A stretch of DNA of 10,705 nucleotides, taken from positions 1,463-12,167 of the forward strand of contig DITI01000008.1 of assembly GCA_002422765.1 (NCBI GenBank), written 5' to 3'. This DNA comes from Candidatus Pacebacteria bacterium UBA6188. Lineage in GTDB: Bacteria; Patescibacteriota; Microgenomatia; UBA1400; PJMF01. Position 1 is the stretch's first letter. Each line of letters begins with the position of its first letter. Under the pieces are notes generated by a model. It saw only the letters and a list, made by a program, of their open reading frames with translations. It was not told the DNA's origin and ran no database searches. Below, one piece after another: positions 1 through 10,705 of the stretch. A program made the translations under genes and the position numbers.

Positions 1-391
1 TTTGCAATTGAACGAGATCGGGTGTTGTTGAAAAATTATGATAACTGAGGATCAACTTTGAATTCTTTCTTTCCAACTGATTAAGTAAAGGTGAATTCAA
101 TTCGAGATCTAAATACTCATAAGCAGCAGCATCAGCCTGCTTTAGAAATTGCAATTTTTCTACTTGAGAACCACCGAATTGACCACCATTTTCTTGATCT
201 CTGAGAGTAAAAATTGTCGGCAGTTTAAGGATTTTTTTAAGCGACTCAATTAATTGCTTGTTTAAGTTAGTCAAAAAATCCGCTCGTAATTCAAAAAAAA
301 CAGAATCTTTTTCTACCTTGGCTAAAAGTGCCTTTGTTTGTTCCAAATCTGGCTCAGCCAAGATAGTGCAAATGGGCAATTTAGACAACAT
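1..391 (-). CDS. aroD: Type I 3-dehydroquinate dehydratase, C-terminal part cut by window edge
   Basis: Dehydrates 3-dehydroquinate to 3-dehydroshikimate in the cytoplasm (shikimate pathway step 3) through a Schiff-base lysine. The first 130 residues are present. They show the family landmarks in order: ELRADF at 34-39 (E. coli Glu46/Arg48 region), FTLR at 61-64 with substrate-binding Arg64, GG at 69-70, YLDLEL at 93-98, and SYHNF at 116-120 with the catalytic His118. The Schiff-base lysine lies beyond the left edge and cannot be checked. The position equivalent to E. coli Glu86, the partner of the catalytic His, is Asn68, preceded by Glu67. The ATG at 391 overlaps the end of aroB by 11 nt and has a GGAAG Shine-Dalgarno-like sequence upstream, so the two are probably translationally coupled. 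It is the last visible gene of the minus-strand operon. The family call is firm. Whether it serves primary or secondary metabolism is open. Confidence 0.9.
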   Translation of the reverse strand, partial: MLSKLPICTILAEPDLEQTKALLAKVEKDSVFFELRADFLTNLNKQLIESLKKILKLPTIFTLRDQENGGQFGGSQVEKLQFLKQADAAAYEYLDLELNSPLLNQLERKNSKLILSYHNFSTTPDLVQLQ

Positions 392-1448
392 TTTTATCTT
401 CCAACATAAATTCATTAACAATGGCTTCCACCACTGCCTCAGGAACCAGCTGATCAAAAACTGCCTGACCAATTGTTTGAGGCAAAGACCAGTAGATATT
501 TTTACCTTTTTTCTTTTTATCAAATTGAAGCAAGGTTAATAAATCTGCGGTTTGTATTTTTTTATCTAAATCAAAAACATAATTGTGTTTAATTACTTGC
601 TCAATCTTTAAACAATCAGCTTGCTTTAACAAGCCAATTTCAACTGCCAAGCGACTTTCCAAAAGCATGCCTAAAGCGACAGCCTCGCCATGAGTGAGAG
701 ATTGTTTGGTCTTTAAAGAAAGCGCTTCAAAAGCATGACCCAGAGTATGACCAAAATTTAAAAGCTTACGCTGGTTTTTTTCTAAGAAATCCTGCTCAAT
801 GGCTTTCATTTTTAGAAAGCATGATTTATCAATAATTTCTGTCAATTCTCTTAAAGAAAATGATAAAAATGACTTACTGGCCAACAAATTAAAAAGTTTT
901 TGATCAAAGATAATGGCGTGTTTCAAAATCTCAGCAAAACCAGACAAGATTTCTCTCTTTGCTAAAGACTGAGTAAAAATTGGATCAATAATCGTTAATT
1001 TGGGATTAATAAACAAACCAATTCCATTTTTAATTTTGCCAAAATTGATAGCTGTCTTACCACCTAAAGACGCATCAACCTGAGCCAAGAGACTGGTAGG
1101 TACATTGATAAAATCAATGCCACGCATGAAGGTGGCGGCGGCAAAGCCGCCTAGATCAGAAATCATGCCGCCGCCAAAATTAAGCAGCAAAGAGTGTCGA
1201 TCAAAACCAAAACTAAATAATTTTTGCCATACTTCTTGCACCTGTTCTAAATTTTTAAATTCTTCTCCATCTGCCAGTTCAATGATTTGCAAAGCAAAAC
1301 CAGCCTGGGCAAAGAAGCTTTTAATTTCAAACTCATAAATTTTGGCCAAAGATACATTGGTTAACAAAGCAAGTTGAGAATAAGCTTTAAAATCAAAAAG
1401 CTTAGATAAATTTGCAAAAGAACCTATTTCACAATGAAGTTTTTGCAT
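381..1448 (-). CDS. aroB: 3-dehydroquinate synthase
   Basis: Converts DAHP to 3-dehydroquinate using NAD+ and a divalent metal (shikimate pathway step 2, cytoplasmic). The 355 residues match the usual single-domain bacterial length. The NAD-binding segment FGGGMISDLGG is at 91-101, followed by the conserved PTSLLAQVDASLGGKTAIN block at 117-135. Predicted metal ligands are Glu173 (SGFAEILKH), His234 (NFGHTLGHA) and His253 (LTHGEAV), with His238 as the catalytic histidine. The ATG at 1448 is 5 nt after the stop of the PaaK-like gene and its 3' end overlaps aroD by 11 nt, so it sits inside one operon. Relatives of this fold make other cyclitols (EEVS, DOIS, amino-DHQ synthases), but direct coupling with aroD argues for true 3-dehydroquinate. 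No other shikimate genes are visible in the window. Confidence 0.93.
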   Translation of the reverse strand: MQKLHCEIGSFANLSKLFDFKAYSQLALLTNVSLAKIYEFEIKSFFAQAGFALQIIELADGEEFKNLEQVQEVWQKLFSFGFDRHSLLLNFGGGMISDLGGFAAATFMRGIDFINVPTSLLAQVDASLGGKTAINFGKIKNGIGLFINPKLTIIDPIFTQSLAKREILSGFAEILKHAIIFDQKLFNLLASKSFLSFSLRELTEIIDKSCFLKMKAIEQDFLEKNQRKLLNFGHTLGHAFEALSLKTKQSLTHGEAVALGMLLESRLAVEIGLLKQADCLKIEQVIKHNYVFDLDKKIQTADLLTLLQFDKKKKGKNIYWSLPQTIGQAVFDQLVPEAVVEAIVNEFMLEDKNVV

Positions 1449-1453
1449 ATTGC

Positions 1454-2809
1454 TTATAAATATCTAAGTTTGCCAGATTTATAACCTAATCTTTGAGTTT
1501 CGTCCAAAACTTTAATTTTTACTTTGACTGGGTGAGGAGACATTATTAGTTTAGAAATTTTTTTGGCCAACTTTACTTCTAAGATTTTAATTTTTTCTTT
1601 AGCGCCTGTCCAAGAAGTCCCCTCTTTAGCGTACAAGCTAAGAGATAAAACAATTATTCCTTTGTTGCTTTTTTCTTGGTACTGAAATTCCTTGTGAAAG
1701 TATTTGCTTAAATCTAGAATGGCAAAGACATTTTGCATGTCTTCAATAGAAATTTGTCTAGATAAATTGCGACCATAAATCACCAATAAGCGCTGATTTT
1801 TTGGATAGGTGTAATCGATTTGATGATGGTCTAAAATTTGTTGGATAGTTTTTGATTCCAAAATAAAACCACGATCGTGCAAGTTATATCTAACAAGAGG
1901 CACTGCCTGATCAGCAGTCACTACAATTTCTCCATCAACTATTTCCACATATTTTTTATCAAAATTAACCTCAACTAAGGTTGGCAAGTTAAAAGTTTTA
2001 AAAAGATCAAAACGCAAATCTTCATTGTCTAAACAATAATTAATTAGTTGATTGATCTCTCTAGACTCAAAACCAATCATCCCCGCCTCAGTACTACCGT
2101 AAAAAGAAACAATATCACTTGAATTACCACCAATTTTTTTGGCCATCTCTTTGCGCCAAAGTGGGCTTACACTCTCTCCAGCAAAAACTATTTTAAGCTG
2201 CCATTTCTCTGGGTGAAGATTCTTTTCTGAAGCTAAATCAATAAAGTCTCCAATAATTGGTGGGTAACCAATTACTATAATTTGCTCATAATGATGATGA
2301 AGTTTGTTTAGTAAAAAGACAGTTTGTTCAGCATCACCATTAGGTGCAATAACACTGATTTGACCATGCAAGCTACCTTCCCAAGAAGATTTGAGGTGCA
2401 TCATGCCTGCCTGAGTAGTACCCAAACCAAAGGCGATCACTACTAGGGTCTTTTTTTGAGTAAAAGCAAAGTGTTCGTTTAAAAATTTGGTGTGAGGTGG
2501 CTCTAAACCACGGTCGTATTCATAATCTCTAGGCCAAATAGTGGGTTCTGCCGTAGAACCAGAACTAGTACAAATCATGTAAAAATCAGCCAAGCTTTTA
2601 TCTTGATGAATTCTCTCTTCTATGGGGTATTTTTGAGTGTAATTATCTTTGTCGCAAAGTGGCAATTCTTCAAAAGCGACTTGTTTTAAATTAACTTTAT
2701 TGGTTTTTAAATGTTTGCCATAAGCTGAACATTTTTGAGCAGATTGAAGAGCCAAAGCTTGCACCTGAGAGAAGTTTGACTTTGCTGATGATTTTTTTAT
2801 TTTTTGCAC
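1454..2809 (-). CDS. PaaK-like adenylate-forming enzyme (phenylacetate-CoA ligase family)
   Basis: A 451-residue member of the adenylate-forming superfamily, closest in motif style to phenylacetate-CoA ligase/CapK proteins. Such enzymes activate a carboxylic acid as an acyl-AMP and pass it to CoA or another nucleophile. Visible motifs are the phosphate loop SSGSTAEPT (82-90), the YGSTEAG motif (237-243), VRYNLHDRG (306-314) with the ribose-binding Asp312, the hinge region GRNLSRQISIED (346-357), and a C-terminal SGK with probable catalytic Lys447. The length and complete motif set suggest an active enzyme. The substrate cannot be read from sequence. It lies 1 nt after the VOC-like gene and 5 nt before aroB, so it is co-transcribed with the dehydroquinate genes; an aromatic or cyclohexane carboxylate derived from that branch would be a reasonable guess. 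No acyl-carrier protein is visible in the window. Confidence 0.82.
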   Translation of the reverse strand: MQKIKKSSAKSNFSQVQALALQSAQKCSAYGKHLKTNKVNLKQVAFEELPLCDKDNYTQKYPIEERIHQDKSLADFYMICTSSGSTAEPTIWPRDYEYDRGLEPPHTKFLNEHFAFTQKKTLVVIAFGLGTTQAGMMHLKSSWEGSLHGQISVIAPNGDAEQTVFLLNKLHHHYEQIIVIGYPPIIGDFIDLASEKNLHPEKWQLKIVFAGESVSPLWRKEMAKKIGGNSSDIVSFYGSTEAGMIGFESREINQLINYCLDNEDLRFDLFKTFNLPTLVEVNFDKKYVEIVDGEIVVTADQAVPLVRYNLHDRGFILESKTIQQILDHHQIDYTYPKNQRLLVIYGRNLSRQISIEDMQNVFAILDLSKYFHKEFQYQEKSNKGIIVLSLSLYAKEGTSWTGAKEKIKILEVKLAKKISKLIMSPHPVKVKIKVLDETQRLGYKSGKLRYL

Positions 2810-3452: not shown

Positions 3453-4190
3453 ATGCTGATTAACCGTAAAAATATTTTAAATTTTCTTGATTTTGTAAAA
3501 TGGTTTGGTTTGAGAAAGGTTTATTATCGCTTCCAAGCTCAAAAGCTTAAACAAAATCTAATTAACAAGGACTTTGCGAGGCTTGCAATTGATTATTACG
3601 ACGGCAACCAAGGACAAAACACTGATTTAAAAACCAATAATTTGGGTTTCGGCTTACTTCACTACGCTTTAGTCCGCAATCTAAAACCAAAAAATGTGTT
3701 GGTAGTTGGTTCACTTAAGGGTTACGTGCCAGCTTTAATCGCTGCTGCTTGTCGAGACAATCATTTTGGGCAAGTTGATTTTGTGGATGCAGCTTTTGAT
3801 GAGGAAAATAATGGTAAAAATTGGCAAGGCATTGGATTTTGGAAAAAAACCAACCCTCAAGCTCATTTTGCTAAAATTGGCGTAGACAAATACCTTACTT
3901 TACACATTATGACCACTCAAGAATTCTCCAAAAAACATCCCCACAAAAAATATCAATATATCTACATCGATGGCGACCATTCTTATGAAGGAGTTAAACT
4001 CGATTACAAGCTCTTTTATCCAAAGCTAGAGAAAAATGGCTTAATGAGTTTTCACGACATTGTGGCTACTGGCCAGCTAACCGGCGGAGATTATGGGGTG
4101 CAAAAATTTTGGCAAGAAATAAAAAGTCAGACCAAAATTACCTTCCCTTTCCCAAAAAACTCTGGCCTAGGCATTTTGCAGAAAAGATAA
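3453..4190 (+). CDS. Class I SAM-dependent methyltransferase (Methyltransf_24/CmcI-like)
   Basis: A 245-residue cytoplasmic protein with a Rossmann-type methyltransferase core. The SAM-binding motif I is VLVVGSLKGYVPALIAAA (about 82-99), followed by the acidic motif II strand VDFVDAAFD. Further on are the strand YIYIDGDHSYEGVKLDY (about 169-185) and NGLMSFHDI, which are characteristic of the Methyltransf_24 group that includes O-methyltransferases such as CmcI. The IDGDHSYEGV segment commonly contributes metal or substrate binding in this group. The N-terminal 60 residues are basic and helical with no clear domain. The ATG has no Shine-Dalgarno sequence. It is first in a plus-strand pair, 1 nt before the PLP decarboxylase, so the two are almost certainly co-expressed. 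The methyl acceptor is unknown; a catechol- or hydroxyl-bearing product of the neighbouring operon is a speculative candidate. Confidence 0.8.
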   Translation: MLINRKNILNFLDFVKWFGLRKVYYRFQAQKLKQNLINKDFARLAIDYYDGNQGQNTDLKTNNLGFGLLHYALVRNLKPKNVLVVGSLKGYVPALIAAACRDNHFGQVDFVDAAFDEENNGKNWQGIGFWKKTNPQAHFAKIGVDKYLTLHIMTTQEFSKKHPHKKYQYIYIDGDHSYEGVKLDYKLFYPKLEKNGLMSFHDIVATGQLTGGDYGVQKFWQEIKSQTKITFPFPKNSGLGILQKR

Positions 4191-4191
4191 G

Positions 4192-5412
4192 ATGTTTGAT
4201 CAATTACTAAAACTTTCCGCAGCTCCTAAAAAAAATCTAAGTTTATTGGAAAATATAATCATCCTCCTATCACTTAGAAAAAAACTCAGTGCGGAAAGCA
4301 AACAAATAGACTTGCAACAACCTTTAGCAAAAAAGGCTAGTTTCTATGCTGATTTAAGCACTAAATTTTTATCTTCATTCATGCCCAACAATTTGGGAAA
4401 TTGGACCAAATATTCACCACATTCCATCAGCACTCAACTAGAAAAACAAACAATTGAAATCATTAAAAGTTACTATCAAGCTGACAAGAATATTAATGGC
4501 TATCTTTCATCCGGATCGACTGAGGGTAATATTTATGCCACTTGGCTTGGTAGAAATTTTTTACGTCAAAAACTAAAAAGTGAAAACAAAAAAATTTGCT
4601 TACTCAAAAGTAGTTTGGCTCACTACTCCGTAGATAAAGCAGCAGATTTAACTGATGTTGAAGTTAAAGAACTAGCAATCAATCAAAAAGAATGGAACAT
4701 TGACCTAAATTATCTGGAAAATGCTTTAGAGTTAAACTATCAAAATAATTACAGAGGGTTTTTATTGCCAATCACTCTTGGTTATACAGTCACTGGAACA
4801 GAAGATAATCTGGAAAAAATTTGTCAAACAATTAAAAATTTCAAAAAGAAACACCCTGAAACATTTTTCTTTGTCTGGTTGGACGCAGCTTTTAACGGCA
4901 TAAGCAAAAACTTTACCCAAAAAAAATTCAAGCCATTTGAAAATAAATACATTCAATTAATTACCACCGATTTCCACAAGCTTCTTAGAAACCCCTATAG
5001 TTCTGGGCTCATCCTATACAGAAAAGGCTTAGATCAATATATCTCTAGAAAAATTCCATACATAGAAAACATGCTAGACACAACCTTGCTTGGATCTAGA
5101 TCTGGAATTTTGGCAATAACAAGCTGGTTTAATTTAATCAATTTAAATAAAAATAAATTAGAAAAATTATTTTTAAAAGCTCGTCTGGAGAAGGAGAGCT
5201 TTATTAAAGAAATAATAAAGAAAAAAGAAATAAAAGTAGAAGTGATCAGCAATCCTTACTCCGTTCAAGCTTGCCTAGTTCATGAAAATAAGAAATCAGC
5301 CAGGATTGCTAAAGAAAAATTTAAACTCAACTCTTTTGAATACCAAATTTTGTTCCCTAACGGAAAAAAGAGGCTGCAGCTGAGCAAGCTATTTTTTTTA
5401 CCAAAATTTTAA
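4192..5412 (+). CDS. Group II PLP-dependent decarboxylase, histidine-decarboxylase-like
   Basis: A 406-residue fold-type I PLP enzyme resembling group II amino acid decarboxylases, especially the PLP-type histidine decarboxylases. The phosphate-binding SSGSTEGN is at 106-113, followed by the ring-stacking His144 in AHYSVDKAA (143-151). Next come TLGYTVTGTEDNL (195-207), the PLP pyridine-binding Asp231 in WLDAAFNG, the Schiff-base Lys263 in TTDFHKLL (258-265), and the DTTLLGSRSG segment (296-305) typical of this subgroup. The usual Ser before the His-Lys pair is replaced by Phe. The start ATG lies 1 nt after the methyltransferase stop, and the 3' end overlaps the convergent QueC-like gene by 15 nt. 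It probably makes an amine from an amino acid, or an amino-acid-derived intermediate. The exact substrate is unresolved; histidine is only the family-level guess. Confidence 0.83.
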   Translation: MFDQLLKLSAAPKKNLSLLENIIILLSLRKKLSAESKQIDLQQPLAKKASFYADLSTKFLSSFMPNNLGNWTKYSPHSISTQLEKQTIEIIKSYYQADKNINGYLSSGSTEGNIYATWLGRNFLRQKLKSENKKICLLKSSLAHYSVDKAADLTDVEVKELAINQKEWNIDLNYLENALELNYQNNYRGFLLPITLGYTVTGTEDNLEKICQTIKNFKKKHPETFFFVWLDAAFNGISKNFTQKKFKPFENKYIQLITTDFHKLLRNPYSSGLILYRKGLDQYISRKIPYIENMLDTTLLGSRSGILAITSWFNLINLNKNKLEKLFLKARLEKESFIKEIIKKKEIKVEVISNPYSVQACLVHENKKSARIAKEKFKLNSFEYQILFPNGKKRLQLSKLFFLPKF

Positions 5413-6366
5413 TTTTGATAAGTGAAATTTTATATAACCCAAAATCTTTTCTTTGAGAGAAGACCAATAAATTGTCTTGTCTTCAATGCCAACACTTGCA
5501 AAACCTTCGCGACGATTTACACAGGTAGCGCAACGGTCACCGCATTGAAAAATACCGTCTCCGTAACAAGACCAAGTTTTTTCTAGAGGAACACCTAGTT
5601 TAGCTCCTAAAGCAATAGTGCCTCCTTTTTCTAAAAGCACACCAGTTTCTCTTTCCAAAAAAACAGAAGAGAAATTCCAACTGTAATCAGCCGTAGCAGT
5701 ACAGATTGCAAACAAGGTGCTACGCAGTGCCGTAAAAGATTGGCTAGAAACTTCAGACCCATCAGTAAAATTAGCACCAACAAATATATTTTTTATTTCT
5801 ATGTTATTAACAAACTTAAGATAATTAGAATAAACAACCCCATAAAAAGGCATTAAATAGGGGCTAACACCCCTAGTTCTAACTAAAACCACGTTGGAAT
5901 CATCATTCGCCAGCCATTTATTTTGCTGAAAATTATGTAGGATTTCCTGATCTGAAACAAAATTGGGGTTAATAGTATCACTAAATTCTTTAGCGATAGT
6001 GTTTACAGTCAGATGAAATGGTTCGACATAATTATCTGGATATTTTTTGGCAAAATATTTCTCTAAAGATTTGACAGCAGCTCTTTCTCTTTTGGCCCTT
6101 CTTTTTGAACCTCGATCAATAATAACGGGATAAACCTTATAATTATAGAGTTCGATTAAAGTTGCCCATGCCACTGTCGAGTCAATTCCTCCTGAAAAAA
6201 GCAAAATAACCGACTCTTTGGCTTTAGGTTGCTTAAACACATAGCCTCTTCTTTGTAAAAAGAAATCATCAACTGCATTAATTGCTTCCAAATCTTCAGT
6301 AGCACGATTTTTTAAATAAGCATCAAATTTTTTTCTTGACCAAGAGCGCATGATTTTATTTTTCAT
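5398..6366 (-). CDS. QueC-like ATP-pyrophosphatase (adenylating ligase), divergent
   Basis: A 322-residue enzyme of the N-type ATP-pyrophosphatase superfamily. The PP-loop is SGGIDS at 58-63. The C-terminal part strongly resembles 7-cyano-7-deazaguanine synthase QueC: GVPLEKTWSCYGDG (258-271), then a zinc site formed by Cys267, Cys275, Cys279 and Cys282, then R-R-E-GF and the G-I-E-D-K-T tail. QueC adenylates a carboxylate and installs ammonia to give an amide and then a nitrile. This protein has an extra roughly 50-residue N-terminus and a long middle region, and VGANFTDGSEVSSQSF (196-211) stands where QueC has its YPDCR-type substrate loop. A different carboxylate or a different acceptor is therefore likely. 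No queD, queE or folE neighbours are visible. It is divergent from the peptide/PqqD unit and ends inside the convergent decarboxylase gene. The ATG at 6366 lacks a clear Shine-Dalgarno; Met6 is an alternative start. Confidence 0.8.
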   Translation of the reverse strand: MKNKIMRSWSRKKFDAYLKNRATEDLEAINAVDDFFLQRRGYVFKQPKAKESVILLFSGGIDSTVAWATLIELYNYKVYPVIIDRGSKRRAKRERAAVKSLEKYFAKKYPDNYVEPFHLTVNTIAKEFSDTINPNFVSDQEILHNFQQNKWLANDDSNVVLVRTRGVSPYLMPFYGVVYSNYLKFVNNIEIKNIFVGANFTDGSEVSSQSFTALRSTLFAICTATADYSWNFSSVFLERETGVLLEKGGTIALGAKLGVPLEKTWSCYGDGIFQCGDRCATCVNRREGFASVGIEDKTIYWSSLKEKILGYIKFHLSKLKFW

Positions 6367-6377
6367 AAAAGCAAGTC

Positions 6378-6406
6378 ATCTTAAACAAAAAACATCAACA
6401 ATTCAA
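6378..6406 (-). promoter_or_regulatory. Weak sigma70-like promoter for the QueC-like gene
   Basis: On the minus strand TTGAAT (6401-6406) and TAAGAT (6378-6383) are separated by 17 nt, each matching 4 of 6 consensus positions. The predicted transcript start would fall only about 5-7 nt before the ATG at 6366, giving an almost leaderless message, which agrees with the absence of a Shine-Dalgarno sequence. This is a weak call. Confidence 0.3.
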
Positions 6407-6416
6407 GCAACCGCAG

Positions 6417-6446
6417 TTGACAAGCTCGAAAAAATATCGCTATACT
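6417..6446 (+). promoter_or_regulatory. Consensus sigma70-type promoter for the small peptide gene
   Basis: A perfect -35 hexamer TTGACA (6417-6422), an 18-nt spacer and a -10 hexamer TATACT (6441-6446, 5 of 6). It lies 43 nt before the ATG of the 28-residue peptide, leaving a leader of roughly 35 nt. It is the best promoter match I see in the window, and it points to strong expression of the peptide and the PqqD-like gene after it. Confidence 0.75.
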
Positions 6447-6477
6447 AAATGAAGTTGCTAAAAACTTAATTTTGGCC

Positions 6478-6484
6478 AAAAGGA
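6478..6484 (+). promoter_or_regulatory. Ribosome binding site of the 28-residue peptide
   Basis: AAAAGGA ends 5 nt before the ATG at 6490. Most other starts in this window have weak or no Shine-Dalgarno sequences, so this clear one helps support the short frame as a real gene. Confidence 0.65.
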
Positions 6485-6489
6485 AAAAT

Positions 6490-6576
6490 ATGAAAAAACA
6501 AGCTAAAAAATATAGCAAACCAGAGCTCAAAAAAAGTAAAATCAAGATCAACTTTGCTTTTGCCGTTGCTAAATAA
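6490..6576 (+). CDS. Short Lys-rich peptide, candidate RiPP precursor
   Basis: A 28-residue frame, MKKQAKKYSKPELKKSK followed by IKINFAFAVAK. It has its own consensus promoter, a good Shine-Dalgarno sequence, and a PqqD-like gene 14 nt downstream. Tyr8-x-x-Pro11-x-Leu13 matches the YxxPxL motif by which lasso peptide leaders bind their PqqD-like recognition element, so residues 1 to about 15 look like a leader. The remaining segment (about 16-28) is basic then hydrophobic, ending Asn-Phe-Ala-Phe-Ala-Val-Ala-Lys. It has no Cys or Thr, and no Asp or Glu after Glu12, so lanthionine rings, azoles or a lasso macrolactam are not expected. Ten of 28 residues are Lys. The C-terminal AFA and AVA triplets resemble signal-peptidase recognition sequences. 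The alternative is a chance frame in an A-rich leader, but promoter, ribosome site, motif and neighbour together make a real gene likely. Confidence 0.68.
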   Translation: MKKQAKKYSKPELKKSKIKINFAFAVAK

Positions 6577-6590
6577 TAAAAAAATAAGCA

Positions 6591-6884
6591 ATGTTTTTTT
6601 CTTTGCCTTTCGCTGATCATCTTTTTTCTCGCTCTAAAGTTAGTTTTAACCAAAAAGATGACTCTTTTTTGGTTCTAACTCCTGATCGTAAACACGTCTT
6701 AGAACTAAAGGATGTTGCTTTTTCTATTTGGAAAAACCTAGCCAAACCCATCTCTTTTGAAGATTTACTCAAAAAACTAAAAAAAGAATATGATGTCTCT
6801 GAAGAAGAACTAGAAAAAGATCTCAAAGATTGGCTCAAACAAGCCCTCAAAGAGAAAATAATCGAAAAAAGTTCAAAAACCTAA
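6591..6884 (+). CDS. PqqD-family protein (RiPP recognition element)
   Basis: A 97-residue protein matching the PqqD/RRE winged-helix pattern. The beta strands DDSFLVLTP (23-31) and HVLELKD (34-40) lead into AFSIWKNL (42-49), which corresponds to the conserved ALxIWxLL helix. ISFEDLLKKLKKEYDVSEEELEKDLKDWLKQALKEKIIE (about 53-92) is the typical tail with an aspartate- and lysine-rich helix pair and a final hydrophobic strand. Proteins of this family bind leader peptides and present them to modifying enzymes. This is a stand-alone version, as in split lasso B1 proteins, without a fused catalytic domain. It follows the candidate precursor by 14 nt under the same promoter and overlaps the convergent ATPase-peptidase gene by 12 nt. 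The first 20 residues are Phe-rich with no recognised function. Confidence 0.8.
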   Translation: MFFSLPFADHLFSRSKVSFNQKDDSFLVLTPDRKHVLELKDVAFSIWKNLAKPISFEDLLKKLKKEYDVSEEELEKDLKDWLKQALKEKIIEKSSKT

Positions 6885-7907
6885 AACTCGACCCAAAAAG
6901 CTTCTCTCTTCCACATGACCCACATCAGCAACCAGATTATTATCACCCTTGGTGACAATTTTGCCCTTTTCTAGTTTATAAAAACGATGAACAACGACGT
7001 TTTGCAAATCCTCGCTCCAAAAAGCAATCACCTCTCCTTTTTTAAGATCGGCAAAATCAGCTCTCTCCACTTCAATCTCATCCCCTTTCAAAATTAAAGG
7101 CTCCATACTGCCACTACTGGCGGTAGCGATAAATTTTTCACCAATTGGCAAATTTTTGAGAAAATCAAATAATAAATTAGCGTTTTGATTGCTAGGTGTT
7201 TTTTCTAACTGCAAGCTAGCACGGTTCTTTTTGTATTCAAGCAAAACCTCTTGCCCTCCATCCATCATGATCTGTCCACGCTCTAACCAAACAAAGCGCT
7301 GACAAAGTCTCTTGAGTAAAGGCAACATGTGACTAGACAGAATAATAGTTTTACCTTGAGCAAAAATTTCTTCCACACTGTCGTAAGCCTTTTTCTGAAA
7401 ATCTTGGTCACCAACAATAATACCCTCATCAAGAATTAAAATATCAGGTTCAGCATGAATGGCGATAGCAAAACCAAGTCTCAGAACCATGCCTGAAGAA
7501 TAGGTGTAGATTGCTTGATCAATAAATTCTGCCAAACCAGCAAAATCAATGATTTCTTGTTCTAAGCTCTTGACTTCTCTTGGTCTGAGACCAAGCAAAA
7601 CAGCATTGAGATAAATATTTTCTCGACCAGAAAATTCCTGATGAAAGCCGGCCGTAATATCAATTAGGGAAACCACTTTACCAAAAGTCTGCACTTCACC
7701 ACTACTAGACTCAGCAATGCCAGCAATTAATTTAAGTAAAGTGGTTTTGCCAGCGCCATTGTCACCTAAAATGGCAACTTTTTCACCCTTTTTGATCTTT
7801 AGGTTAAGATTTTGTAAAGCAAAAAAAGGTTTTTTATCAAAAGAATTGCGCAAAAAATAGCGCTTACTCACTCTCTTTAATAAAACAGCTGTTTTAGAAC
7901 CAGTCAT
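6873..7907 (-). CDS. ABC-2 exporter ATPase (Wzt/TagH-like) fused to a soluble S26-type peptidase domain
   Basis: A 344-residue two-domain protein. Residues 1 to about 228 form an ABC ATPase of the polysaccharide-exporter type. They show Walker A GDNGAGKTT (48-56), the Wzt/TagH-style block SLIDITAGFHQEFSGRENIY (80-99), a signature YSSGM (136-140), Walker B LILDE (157-161) with catalytic Glu161, and the switch His193. After a linker (about 229-255), residues 256-344 form a signal-peptidase-like domain: SGSMEP (265-270) with nucleophile Ser267, VVHR with His307 as the base, and TKGDNN (319-324) with Asp328. A His rather than a Lys base marks the S26B/Sec11 type. No transmembrane segment is present, so the peptidase should act on the cytoplasmic face. 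Its permease gene lies upstream with a 14-nt overlap. By analogy with C39-ABC bacteriocin exporters it may cleave a leader while exporting the product; this is inference. Confidence 0.85.
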   Translation of the reverse strand: MTGSKTAVLLKRVSKRYFLRNSFDKKPFFALQNLNLKIKKGEKVAILGDNGAGKTTLLKLIAGIAESSSGEVQTFGKVVSLIDITAGFHQEFSGRENIYLNAVLLGLRPREVKSLEQEIIDFAGLAEFIDQAIYTYSSGMVLRLGFAIAIHAEPDILILDEGIIVGDQDFQKKAYDSVEEIFAQGKTIILSSHMLPLLKRLCQRFVWLERGQIMMDGGQEVLLEYKKNRASLQLEKTPSNQNANLLFDFLKNLPIGEKFIATASSGSMEPLILKGDEIEVERADFADLKKGEVIAFWSEDLQNVVVHRFYKLEKGKIVTKGDNNLVADVGHVEERSFLGRVLGF

Positions 7908-8706
7908 CGAAATTTTTACTTTCTTTTCTAAAAATTTGCAAAGCTACTAATAGATAAGGCACGGATAAAAAGGCAAATATAGTAGAAGCCAGCAAATTCA
8001 AATCACCACCAAGGAAGAGATAGCGAAAAACTTCAATAAAACTCACCAAGGGATTGAAATAAAGAATTTGCCTAAAAGCTTCTGGCAACATGCTGAGACT
8101 ATAAACAATCGGCACGCCATAAAAAAGCAGTTGGACGCCAAGTTGCACCACAAAATTTAAATCTCTCACTCTGACATAAATAGCAGACACAATCAAACAA
8201 GTAGCCAAAACAAATAATAAGAAAAGGCCAAAAAAGAAAGCTGATAGAAACAGTCTAGAGACAAAAAACCACAAAGCACTCAGTAAGCTACCTTGCAAAA
8301 AGGTTAGAAAAACCAAAAAAACTCCACTCGCCACTAAAGTGTGAAATAAATTGGCCAAAACAGCCGCAATCACCAAAATTTCTCTGGGAAAAGCTGCTTT
8401 TTGAATCAAAGCTCTCTCCTGTACCAAGAGAGGTGTGGTCCTAAGTAAAGAATTGGCAAAAAAGCCCCATGGCAAAAGCCCGGCAAATAAAAACAAGAAG
8501 TAATTTTCAATTCGCATCGGCACAAAAAACTGAAAAACCAAGCCAATGATCAGCATTTGCAATAAAGGATTAAGAATCACCCACAATAAACCCAAAAAGG
8601 TTCTTTTGTAGCGCAATTTAATCTCTTTTTTGGTCAACAGATAAATAAAATCCAAATAGTAGCTCCAAGCAAAAGACTCAGTCATTCTCGAAAAGGAGAA
8701 TATCAC
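7894..8706 (-). CDS. ABC-2 type exporter permease (Wzm/TagG-like)
   Basis: A 270-residue integral membrane protein with about six hydrophobic segments. It opens with the family hallmark YRLTKKEIKLRYKR-like amphipathic region (about 20-35; here LLTKKEIKLRYKRTFLG). The first membrane helix, around WVILNPLLQMLIIGLVFQFF (42-61), is the typical Wzm/TagG sequence. A cytoplasmic AFPREIL motif (about 105-111) and a VRVRDL motif (178-183) follow, then a VPIVYSLSMLP segment. It forms the channel for the ATPase encoded next. Such transporters usually export undecaprenyl-linked polysaccharides or teichoic acids, but this copy sits with a peptidase-bearing ATPase and a RiPP-like gene pair, so a peptide cargo is possible. 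The GTG start at 8706 has a GAGGG ribosome site 9 nt upstream; an in-frame ATG at 8685 (Met8) has none and is less likely. Confidence 0.86.
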   Translation of the reverse strand: MIFSFSRMTESFAWSYYLDFIYLLTKKEIKLRYKRTFLGLLWVILNPLLQMLIIGLVFQFFVPMRIENYFLFLFAGLLPWGFFANSLLRTTPLLVQERALIQKAAFPREILVIAAVLANLFHTLVASGVFLVFLTFLQGSLLSALWFFVSRLFLSAFFFGLFLLFVLATCLIVSAIYVRVRDLNFVVQLGVQLLFYGVPIVYSLSMLPEAFRQILYFNPLVSFIEVFRYLFLGGDLNLLASTIFAFLSVPYLLVALQIFRKESKNFDDWF

Positions 8707-8782: not shown

Positions 8783-10705
8783 ATGAACAATCCTCGAGAC
8801 TACTTACCAGCTAAATATAAAAGAAACACGCCAATTGGTGACGATTTCCAGAACGATCCCCCAAAAGACTCTAAAAATTCCAACTCCACTAGTGATCTAG
8901 ACAACTCACCATGGAGTGATTTAGCCAAGGAGCCACAAGTTCCTTCTTACCGCAGTAGCGTTGCAGAGGAAGTTGAAAGTAATGAAAAATCAGTTGACTT
9001 GACCAGCGATCTTCCAAATTTAGATACGAAGCCAGAAGATTCACTTAATCCAACTTTTCCCAAGGTCAAAAGTAAAGCCAATAATAAAAAGTTAGCCGGC
9101 CTCTTGGTCTTGTTCTTCTTGGTAGTCGGTGTTTTTTCCAGTTATTTACTCACTCAACAAAGTCAAGACAATCGACAGCAAGCTCACAATGGAATGATGG
9201 CTCCAGCCCCTCCAGGTGGTTGTGGTTCTGTTGCTGGCACTCATAAGGAAACTATTGGTGGCGTTGATTATTGTGTACCAAACTTACCAGAAGATGCTCC
9301 CTTAGTTCAAACTCAAGGTCGCTTTGGCTGGTGTTGGGATGTAGGCGCTGGTGGCGGCGTCCAAGGTGGTCACTCCTGTTCCGCTGACGAATGGAAAGAT
9401 CCCACCAAGACTATTGCCGGCACTTATGTGTGGCCACCAGGATGTGTAGGAGATGCATGTAAACGTTATGTTATTAACATTCCCAGCACTCTAGAAGCTG
9501 CTGTCAACTATGCAACTCAATTACCTCAAATCAGAGATGTGCTCTATCAAGCTAGTGGCAACCAACTAGAAATTGCTCCTTTTTTCACTTGTGCTAGCGC
9601 TGGCAGTAGTGGCACTGGCAGTGCTGATGGCTATAATTCAGTCAACTGTGACACCGATCCTCGCTGTGGAGCAGTGGAAACAGTGACTGTTAGCATTATT
9701 GGTCAAACTCCATATCAGCAAACTAGATGTTATTTGACACAAACTGCTTATAACAATCTTCCTCCGGGTCAAATTTGGTCTCCTTACAACACTGGTTGTG
9801 GCGATGGCGTGCACGACAACCCAGATCAAACCACTATTCCGGGAGTAGGAAACACCAACGAATCCTACGCCGGCGACTGTAGCACTTGGCACTTTACTCA
9901 ATGTCTTAATGAAGGCACTGGCGTAAATGGCTTGGGTTGCGACATTATTGATACGCCCAATATCACTACCGAAGAGCCTCCAGACGAACCACCCACTGAA
10001 CCACCTACTACTCAGCCACCTACTGGCACTCCTACTGGCACACCAACCGCTCCTCCAGAACTGCTCTGTACTGACCTCGAAATGCTTAATTCGCTTGGTG
10101 ATCTGATGGAGGGTGATGATGATCAAGACCTCATTTCTGGTGACCAAGTCCGCTTCCGTGGTAGTTCTTCTGACGACGATAATCCTGAAGTCACTTTTGA
10201 ATTTAGAATCTTGCCCCCAAACACTTACGCTTGGCAAAATTTAACCAATACTAGTTCTGGTTCGACTGCTAAGAATATTTCTGCTCCTTATACCGTCATT
10301 AGCTCTGGACACCACATTGTTCAGTCTAGAGTTTGCCTCTCAGGAGTTTGTCAAGCTTGGGAAAGTAACGATGAAGTCGATGATCAATTTACCTCCATCT
10401 TTGAAGATGTGCCTGTCACCCATTGGGCTTATCGATCAATTTTAGCCATCTATAATGAAGAGATCACTTCAGGTTGTAGTAGTGATCCGCTGAGATATTG
10501 TCCAGAAACAGCAACCACTCGTGGTCAAGCCGCCACTCTCATCATGAAGGCCAAATATGGTGCTGACTACAACTTTACTCTCGCTGCTACTCCAGTCTTT
10601 GCTGATGTAGCTGCTGACAATACTATGAGAAAATTCATTGAGAAGATGTATGCTGACGGCATTACTGCTGGTTGCAGCAGTAACCCACTCAATTTCTGTC
10701 CTGAC
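8783..10705 (+). CDS. SLH-domain cell surface protein with N-terminal membrane anchor, 3' end beyond window
   Basis: The open frame runs from ATG 8783 to the window end (641 codons, no stop). Residues 1-102 are polar, Ser/Asp/Pro-rich and probably cytoplasmic; a single membrane helix spans about 103-123. The external part begins with a Cys-rich region (about 147-390) containing many Cys residues, Gly-rich stretches and Trp. A Pro/Thr linker (398-425, repeats such as EPPT and PTGT) follows, then an Ig/PKD-like region (about 428-530). The first complete SLH domain runs from FEDVPVTHWAY (540) to about 592 with a CSSDPLRYCPE block and TTRGQAA. A second SLH domain starts at VFADVA (605) and is cut at the edge with the same CSSNPLNFCPD block. 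SLH domains bind cell-wall polymers, so this is a surface-layer or adhesin-like protein. There is no Shine-Dalgarno at the start. It is divergent from the exporter and has distinctly higher G+C. Confidence 0.85.
   Translation, partial: MNNPRDYLPAKYKRNTPIGDDFQNDPPKDSKNSNSTSDLDNSPWSDLAKEPQVPSYRSSVAEEVESNEKSVDLTSDLPNLDTKPEDSLNPTFPKVKSKANNKKLAGLLVLFFLVVGVFSSYLLTQQSQDNRQQAHNGMMAPAPPGGCGSVAGTHKETIGGVDYCVPNLPEDAPLVQTQGRFGWCWDVGAGGGVQGGHSCSADEWKDPTKTIAGTYVWPPGCVGDACKRYVINIPSTLEAAVNYATQLPQIRDVLYQASGNQLEIAPFFTCASAGSSGTGSADGYNSVNCDTDPRCGAVETVTVSIIGQTPYQQTRCYLTQTAYNNLPPGQIWSPYNTGCGDGVHDNPDQTTIPGVGNTNESYAGDCSTWHFTQCLNEGTGVNGLGCDIIDTPNITTEEPPDEPPTEPPTTQPPTGTPTGTPTAPPELLCTDLEMLNSLGDLMEGDDDQDLISGDQVRFRGSSSDDDNPEVTFEFRILPPNTYAWQNLTNTSSGSTAKNISAPYTVISSGHHIVQSRVCLSGVCQAWESNDEVDDQFTSIFEDVPVTHWAYRSILAIYNEEITSGCSSDPLRYCPETATTRGQAATLIMKAKYGADYNFTLAATPVFADVAADNTMRKFIEKMYADGITAGCSSNPLNFCPD

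Follow-up and report, generated by a model that had tools for sequence, protein, structure and literature searches.

We note that a stretch of 10,705 nucleotides from Candidatus Pacebacteria bacterium UBA6188 (GenBank assembly GCA_002422765.1, contig DITI01000008.1, positions 1,463 to 12,167 of the forward strand; hereafter "the window") probably encodes a pathway for a ribosomally synthesized and post-translationally modified peptide (RiPP), guided by a RiPP recognition element (RRE) and with a QueC-like ATP-pyrophosphatase as its tailoring enzyme. The genome from which the window comes (G000) amounts to 776 kb in 66 contigs, and relatives of its QueC-like protein bear names such as Candidatus Roizmanbacteria and Candidatus Microgenomatus. 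An initial annotation had described the locus as RiPP-like on the strength of a YxxP peptide, a stand-alone PqqD protein, a QueC-like ligase and a peptidase-exporter; re-reading of the window together with a domain scan found each of these elements where that annotation had placed it. The RiPP-type reading is supported because the gene set is conserved among relatives, because direct QueC-PqqD fusions occur, and because RRE-dependent cleavage of a leader by a SipW-type peptidase has been published for linear polyphosphorylated peptides (LPPs). The features concerned are as follows.

6417..6446, plus strand: sigma-70-like promoter of the peptide-pqqD unit, TTGACA-18-TATACT (pattern and spacer identical before the peptide in loci L119 and L120)
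6481..6484, plus strand: AGGA ribosome-binding site of the peptide gene, by reading of the sequence
6490..6576, plus strand: precursor peptide of 28 amino acids with leader motif YSKPEL (counterparts in 10/10 clade-A loci with context; purifying selection)
6591..6884, plus strand: stand-alone PqqD/RRE protein (PF05402, 47.2 bits against a cut-off of 23.4; 9 homologues)
5398..6366, minus strand: QueC-like ATP-pyrophosphatase, the proposed tailoring enzyme (PF06508, 61.6 bits against a cut-off of 22)
6873..7907, minus strand: ATP-binding cassette (ABC) ATPase of Wzt/TagH type with a C-terminal S26 (SipW-type; S24/S26) peptidase (PF00005, 76.7 bits, and PF00717, 24.6 bits, both above cut-off)
7894..8706, minus strand: ABC-2 permease of the exporter (PF01061, 51.6 bits)
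3453..4190, plus strand: Methyltransf_24 methyltransferase, a probable pathway member (PF13578)
4192..5412, plus strand: pyridoxal phosphate (PLP) group II decarboxylase, histidine decarboxylase-like, a probable pathway member (PF00282, 42 bits)

The window peptide reads MKKQAKKYSKPELKKSKIKINFAFAVAK, and the PqqD gene begins 14 nt past its stop codon. The 28-residue peptide gene is real, because a promoter and a ribosome site precede it and because few amino-acid changes separate it from its nearest relative (L119:2192-2278): the two differ by 20 base changes and 6 amino-acid changes, as compared to a mean of 12.8 amino-acid changes expected from 20 random base changes, with six or fewer arising at P ~1e-4 in a simulation of 20000 runs that assumed 60% transitions. 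The 33.9 kb surrounding PqqD genes hold 18 open reading frames (ORFs) of 18-60 residues that are K/R-rich and carry YxxP, as compared to 28 in 447.6 kb elsewhere. This count treats the peptides of G003, G017, G530, G698, G673, G483 and G727 as "far" for lying beyond the PqqD zone; the 28 include several true-looking ones adjoining QueC-like genes, and some of the "near" ORFs look like chance (L124, L170 and one in L171).

In a tree of 44 sequences, for which groups had been named by gene content before tree building, the window falls into a clade of ten rows with support 97/98 (clade A). The combination of QueC-like gene, PqqD, S26 peptidase and short YxxP peptide is found in nine of the ten clade-A rows and additionally in genome G669, whose split gene has both halves within clade A when these are entered as separate rows in a quick tree (support 95); the two halves in G530 and likewise those in G669 presumably belong together. 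Peptide, PqqD and S26 stand beside the QueC-like gene in all ten clade-A genomes with context (G000, G001, G002, G003, G005, G017, G038, G530, G634 and G669), and none of these loci lacks a small YxxP peptide, an absence that would have told against the initial annotation. The peptides are MKKQLKKYVKPELKKNKVKINFAFAASK (G001), MKKYNKPVLKKAKIKISLAVAEAI (G005), MKKKSYNKPSVKKVALVAVAFAEPI (G002), MQKYKKPQLRIIDLKAILVVAE (G003), MKKPSKEYIKPNDKKVKIRIVLPFVASSHDPFEI (G038), MKYIVPQDIRVEILAVLVQED (G017), MKTPKRIYKKPADKKIKLRAVLIIPEAV (G530), MKKKSQVKVVKYQKPSDTRSKITVMLVET (G634) and MSTKKQKKKYKKPQDLRVKINALLFLEGE (G669), those of G038 and G017 having been chosen by eye among the ORFs in the gap. The peptide directly precedes PqqD on the same strand in eight of ten clade-A loci and lies on the opposite side of the QueC-like gene in G003 and G017, the G017 peptide being the weakest of the ten and not Lys-rich. 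L022 and G501, cut at contig ends, were not counted.

Strong QueC-like matches occur in 9/379 genomes of a phylum sample and 20/373 of a class sample; among 89 relatives searched, the window's genome counted, 16 have a QueC-like and 15 a PqqD match. Homology search yielded nine close relatives of the window PqqD protein, and a second PqqD gene of G001 (L132 68-358), at a contig edge with neighbours resembling the G003 cluster, is probably a second copy of the locus in that genome. Loci were tabulated from 27 genomes or records, with a PqqD domain inside the fetched stretch in 14 of them. PqqD follows the QueC-like clade: the nine tree members outside both clade A and the fusion clade described below (G007, G010, G516, G520, G584, G723, G152, G381 and G527) have PqqD in 0/9 and S26 in 1/9 (G527) of their fetched stretches. 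Two further genomes, G402 and G080, lie outside the tree (G080 also outside the locus table), and the fetched stretch of G402 holds no PqqD or S26.

The ATP and zinc motifs of the QueC-like enzyme are intact, with S58, G59, G60 and D62 of the SGGIDS loop and four Cys invariant across 52 sequences. Pfam names the protein QueC, and one might thus suppose an ordinary queuosine enzyme that happens to sit beside an unrelated PqqD gene. We consider this scarcely credible: the protein scores 39.5 bits with the NCBIfam QueC model against a cut-off of 150.3, and the QueC-like branch is separate from six canonical QueC sequences with support 100/100. Canonical QueC membership was rejected because the YPDC and VPxRN motifs are lost (hhalign) and because 23 of the 24 genomes with a QueC-like gene gave no match to QueD (PF01242), G000 and the single-contig G003 (rated 100% complete) included, the one match being in G520. 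QatC was likewise rejected (21.9 bits against an NCBIfam cut-off of 280; PADLOC models gave 19.4 bits for QatC and 42.5 for QueC), and CD-NTase, QatA and QatD-type Pfam domains were not found among the ten window proteins, QatB having no Pfam model. A WbpG-type N-sugar amidotransferase, an enzyme named in PMC13329287, was set aside on the weak ground that its model is absent among the 16 NCBIfam matches of the protein. In structure searches Foldseek alone put YcfA chains first, and after VIA re-alignment Cap9 and QueC ranked highest. None of the 46 records of a phage collection that match the QueC-like query covers 80% of it; the 20 matches listed cover 17 to 33% and bear mostly QueC-like names.

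Cap9 of the type IV cyclic-oligonucleotide-based antiphage signalling system (CBASS) and QatC of qatABCD share with the window enzyme the QueC fold, the SGGxDS motif and a Cys cluster (PMC13279940, PMC13329287), and the deazaguanine-binding Tyr/Asp are replaced in QatC as they are in the window enzyme (PMC13329287). Cap9 joins an activated carboxylate to the N-terminus of a protein, an amine acceptor (PMC13279940), and by analogy the window enzyme might activate a small carboxylic acid, be it 7-carboxy-7-deazaguanine or a different one, and couple it to the peptide or a partner protein, either at the N-terminus or at a Lys. We regard such conjugation as rather improbable, and its peptide-directed form overlaps with the RRE-guided RiPP pathway. 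The loss of YPDC and VPxRN and the missing QueD tell against the deazaguanine form, other acids being unaffected. The window peptide, moreover, starts Met1-Lys2, a start that presumably keeps its methionine, and this weighs against a Cap9-type reaction, as compared to the N-terminal glycine that is the acceptor in CBASS (PMC13279940). Unlike Cap9 and QatC, the window enzyme is linked to PqqD and a small peptide, and in relatives it is fused to PqqD.

These fusions belong to a second clade of 19 rows (support 99/100), in which most QueC-like enzymes carry PqqD at their C-terminus; it includes near-copies of the L170 and L171 proteins (P0067 and P0073). The L170 fusion passes the Pfam cut-off for PqqD (33.9 against 23.4 bits), and those of L171 and L172 are seen by weaker scores only; among 14 homologues longer than 400 amino acids, 12 are QueC-PqqD fusions with a hidden Markov model built here and seven by precomputed Pfam. 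RREs in RiPP pathways are either discrete or fused to biosynthetic proteins (PMC7470986), and both arrangements occur here, the window PqqD being over its cut-off as a discrete RRE and the QueC-PqqD proteins of the other clade presenting a fused one. Two members, G483 (previously grouped with A) and G727, have unfused enzymes; G483 has PqqD, S26 and YxxP ORFs, and G727 has YxxP ORFs and an S26 piece at a contig edge, PqqD not being found. A radical SAM gene is present in three loci of the clade (L171 by Pfam; L172 and L174 by NCBIfam scores below cut-offs), and the L170 locus has an S26-nucleotidyltransferase fusion. Several YxxP peptides at L172 5770-6017 and L174 9729-9839 and 12832-12927, two of them with a WGGG..Y C-terminus and radical SAM genes alongside, may form a second, differently modified peptide family. 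The branch that joins A with groups C and D is weak (85/63), and one and two origins of the PqqD link are therefore indistinguishable.

Residues Ser267, His307 and Asp328 of the window peptidase are aligned in 13/13 sequences, G038 and G673 having been left out of that alignment. Six of ten clade-A genomes have the S26 domain on the same chain as the ATPase, and three (G002, G530 and G634) have it separate; the G038 reading frame is interrupted. In LPPs a SipW-type peptidase cut the YxxP leader solely with the RRE present, and Ser, His and Asp were needed (PMC13381572), which lends outside support to the leader-removal step that we propose.

On present evidence from gene content and motifs, the QueC-like enzyme likely tailors the window peptide, and the following route may be envisaged. 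PqqD would bind the YxxP leader and present the peptide to the QueC-like enzyme, which would adenylate a carboxylate with ATP, after which an amine nitrogen would displace AMP. The modified site would most likely be the C-terminal carboxylate of the peptide, or a neighbouring acidic residue where one is present, and the product could be an amide, perhaps a nitrile of the kind that QueC makes, or a conjugate with an amine from the linked decarboxylase. That the reaction yields an amide or nitrile at the C-terminus or close to it is put forward only tentatively, as somewhat less than an even chance. The methyltransferase may act after the QueC-like enzyme; the S26 domain on the exporter ATPase would then remove the leader at the cytoplasmic side, and the Wzm/Wzt-type transporter would export the product. 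A bolder and somewhat unlikely version is a RiPP class with the QueC-like protein as signature enzyme and the peptide as a scaffold, from whose C-terminal tail an exported small amide, nitrile or amine conjugate would derive. Here the YxxP leader and a hydrophobic stretch would be followed by an S26 cut at an A-x-A-like site, leaving a tail of one to few residues; by reading of the sequences, the tails after the proposed cut in relatives are K, SK, EAI, EPI, E, QED, ET and EGE.

Several observations weigh against a peptide-directed pathway of this kind. The YxxPxL motif of the initial annotation holds in its YxxP part and fails in its last position, where L is found in four, V in one and D in five of the ten clade-A peptides, so that half of them have D there. 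Similarly, its statement that the core has no acidic residue is true of the window and not of eight of the ten clade-A peptides, which have an acidic residue near the C-terminus; the residue on which the chemistry might act is missing in the window and G001 peptides. At L022, in clade A, the 168 bases to the contig end before the QueC-like gene hold no YxxP start (they do hold a promoter-like TTGACA-18-TATAAT). In a tethered AlphaFold2 model of the G005 peptide and PqqD, the PqqD block has a predicted local distance difference test (pLDDT) score of 76 to 89, and peptide residues 4-38 fall below 50, leaving the peptide undefined, so that the model speaks neither for nor against leader binding. 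Within the group-C branch, G527 has an S26 domain fused to a nucleotidyltransferase domain (S26-NTP_transf_5) adjoining its QueC-like gene with PqqD not found, so the triad is not strictly all-or-none. Finally, the fetched stretches of group C (G007, G010, G516, G520, G584 and G723) hold no PqqD, no S26 and no recognised peptide, PqqD also being not found genome-wide in G007 and G010, the two so checked. Group C nonetheless keeps the methyltransferase in 6/6, a decarboxylase in 6/6 and the exporter ATPase in 5/6 (near the QueC-like gene in clade-A genomes: 8/10, 6/10 and 10/10, respectively). Hence the core set (QueC-like enzyme, decarboxylase, methyltransferase, exporter) extends beyond the peptide triad, and the older or first substrate of the enzyme may be something other than such a peptide.

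The gene content of group C would suit an alternative in which these genes form an older module for a surface glycan or a small molecule, and peptide, PqqD and S26 a separate RiPP unit that shares only its exporter and locus, as would the presence of PqqD-peptide-S26 sets in four genomes without a QueC-like match (G013, G040, G049 and G061). A chance neighbour would not be expected to yield direct QueC-PqqD fusions in another clade, nor a triad that depends on the QueC-like clade, and we judge the two-unit alternative unlikely. Four of the decarboxylases in group C are of histidine-decarboxylase type and two of ornithine/diaminopimelate type, and two unrelated families in one place suggest an amine as substrate. 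A similar "MFGIKTK" start is shared by methyltransferases and PLP decarboxylases at L123 9475-10191, L125 3987-5924, L126 3372-5316 and L022 1986-3729; this start, common to unrelated families, may be a docking or membrane-binding helix. HAM1/RdgB-like ORFs, recognised by reading of N-termini, lie near the PqqD-less QueC-like genes of G381, G080 and G584 (L167 3283-3912, L180 10391-10954 and L127 9566-10150) and hint at nucleotide-analogue chemistry at those loci.

The closest precedent is the LPP family of Bacillota, which has in common with the window-type loci a discrete RRE, a YxxPx leader, a SipW-type Ser/His/Asp peptidase and an ABC exporter; LPP loci, with their archaeal/SipW-type peptidase, are often near polysaccharide loci, as here (PMC13381572). 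The enzymes are different: where LPP loci have a kinase and an NTP transferase, the window has a QueC-like enzyme, and its peptidase is fused to a Wzt-type ATPase. The precursors are of 35-200 amino acids in LPPs as compared to 28 in the window (PMC13381572). No HprK-like kinase or NTP transferase was matched among the ten proteins of the window locus, the one locus scanned (Pfam, NCBIfam), and in place of the LPP leader YxxPxVLxHQxIxFETxxS the window peptide reads YSKPELKKSKIKINFAFAVAK. By published account LPPs are confined to Bacillota (PMC13381572), and yet LPP-like sets were found in Patescibacteria at L130, L131 and L133. These sets pair PqqD with NTP_transf_5, which in L130 and L131 is fused to S26; there are also weak HprK-related matches, and L130 and L133 have a YxxP peptide. 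We also concur with the initial annotation that the locus is not a lasso system, since lasso pathways use a B2 protease and an AsnB-type cyclase and neither domain is present among the ten window proteins. Lasso peptides do likewise have a YxxPxL leader and a discrete PqqD-type RRE (PMC13381572). For the chemistry, the peptide amidases TsrC and ScdTA and the nitrilobacillin nitrile synthetase PesC form C-terminal amides or a nitrile on RiPPs, and their ATP-dependent action on the C-terminal carboxylate of a precursor is that proposed here (PMC13060819). They are asparagine-synthetase-like, PesC using glutamine (PMC13060819), whereas the window enzyme is of QueC-like type, has a Cys4 site and stands among other genes.

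The claim of an undescribed type accordingly needs dividing: RRE, YxxP leader and SipW-type peptidase have been described together since 2026, and the QueC-like enzyme and the peptidase-fused Wzt-type ATPase are new. No report of a QueC-type RiPP enzyme was found in the literature searched, which largely excludes subscription journals, nor was a paper that treats QueC and PqqD as a pathway, as judged by titles and abstract starts, or one that combines "7-cyano-7-deazaguanine synthase" with "precursor peptide". The main text of a 2026 QueC-family survey makes no mention of PqqD, RiPP or Patescibacteria, and QueC is absent from the available text of two RRE papers (one of them PMC7470986). Graspetide clusters have been reported in the candidate phyla radiation (PMC8939145), and RiPPs as such are therefore not new there. 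If the RRE-guided pathway is borne out, QueC-like ATP-pyrophosphatases would join the small list of folds that tailor ribosomal peptides, leader processing by RRE and SipW-type peptidase would reach beyond Bacillota into Patescibacteria, and bacteria with genomes of ~1 Mb would devote genes to a dedicated exported peptide. The compact gene set lends itself to tests in E. coli, with the fusion proteins as a single-chain starting point.

We further note two features of the flanks. Shikimate-type genes border the locus in G000 and G005 (window 381-2809, minus strand; L128 2-2910; L120 5374-13991), encoding DAHP (3-deoxy-D-arabino-heptulosonate 7-phosphate) synthase, 3-dehydroquinate synthase (AroB), type I dehydroquinase and two AMP-ligase-like proteins, together with a DegT aminotransferase and a Gfo/Idh oxidoreductase in G005; these constitute perhaps a partial shikimate route with activating enzymes, in a separate aromatic-acid pathway. 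On the other side (window 8783-10705, plus strand) lies a gene for a large protein with a membrane-spanning stretch and, by reading of its sequence, S-layer-homology-like repeats, relatives of which adjoin the exporter in several genomes.

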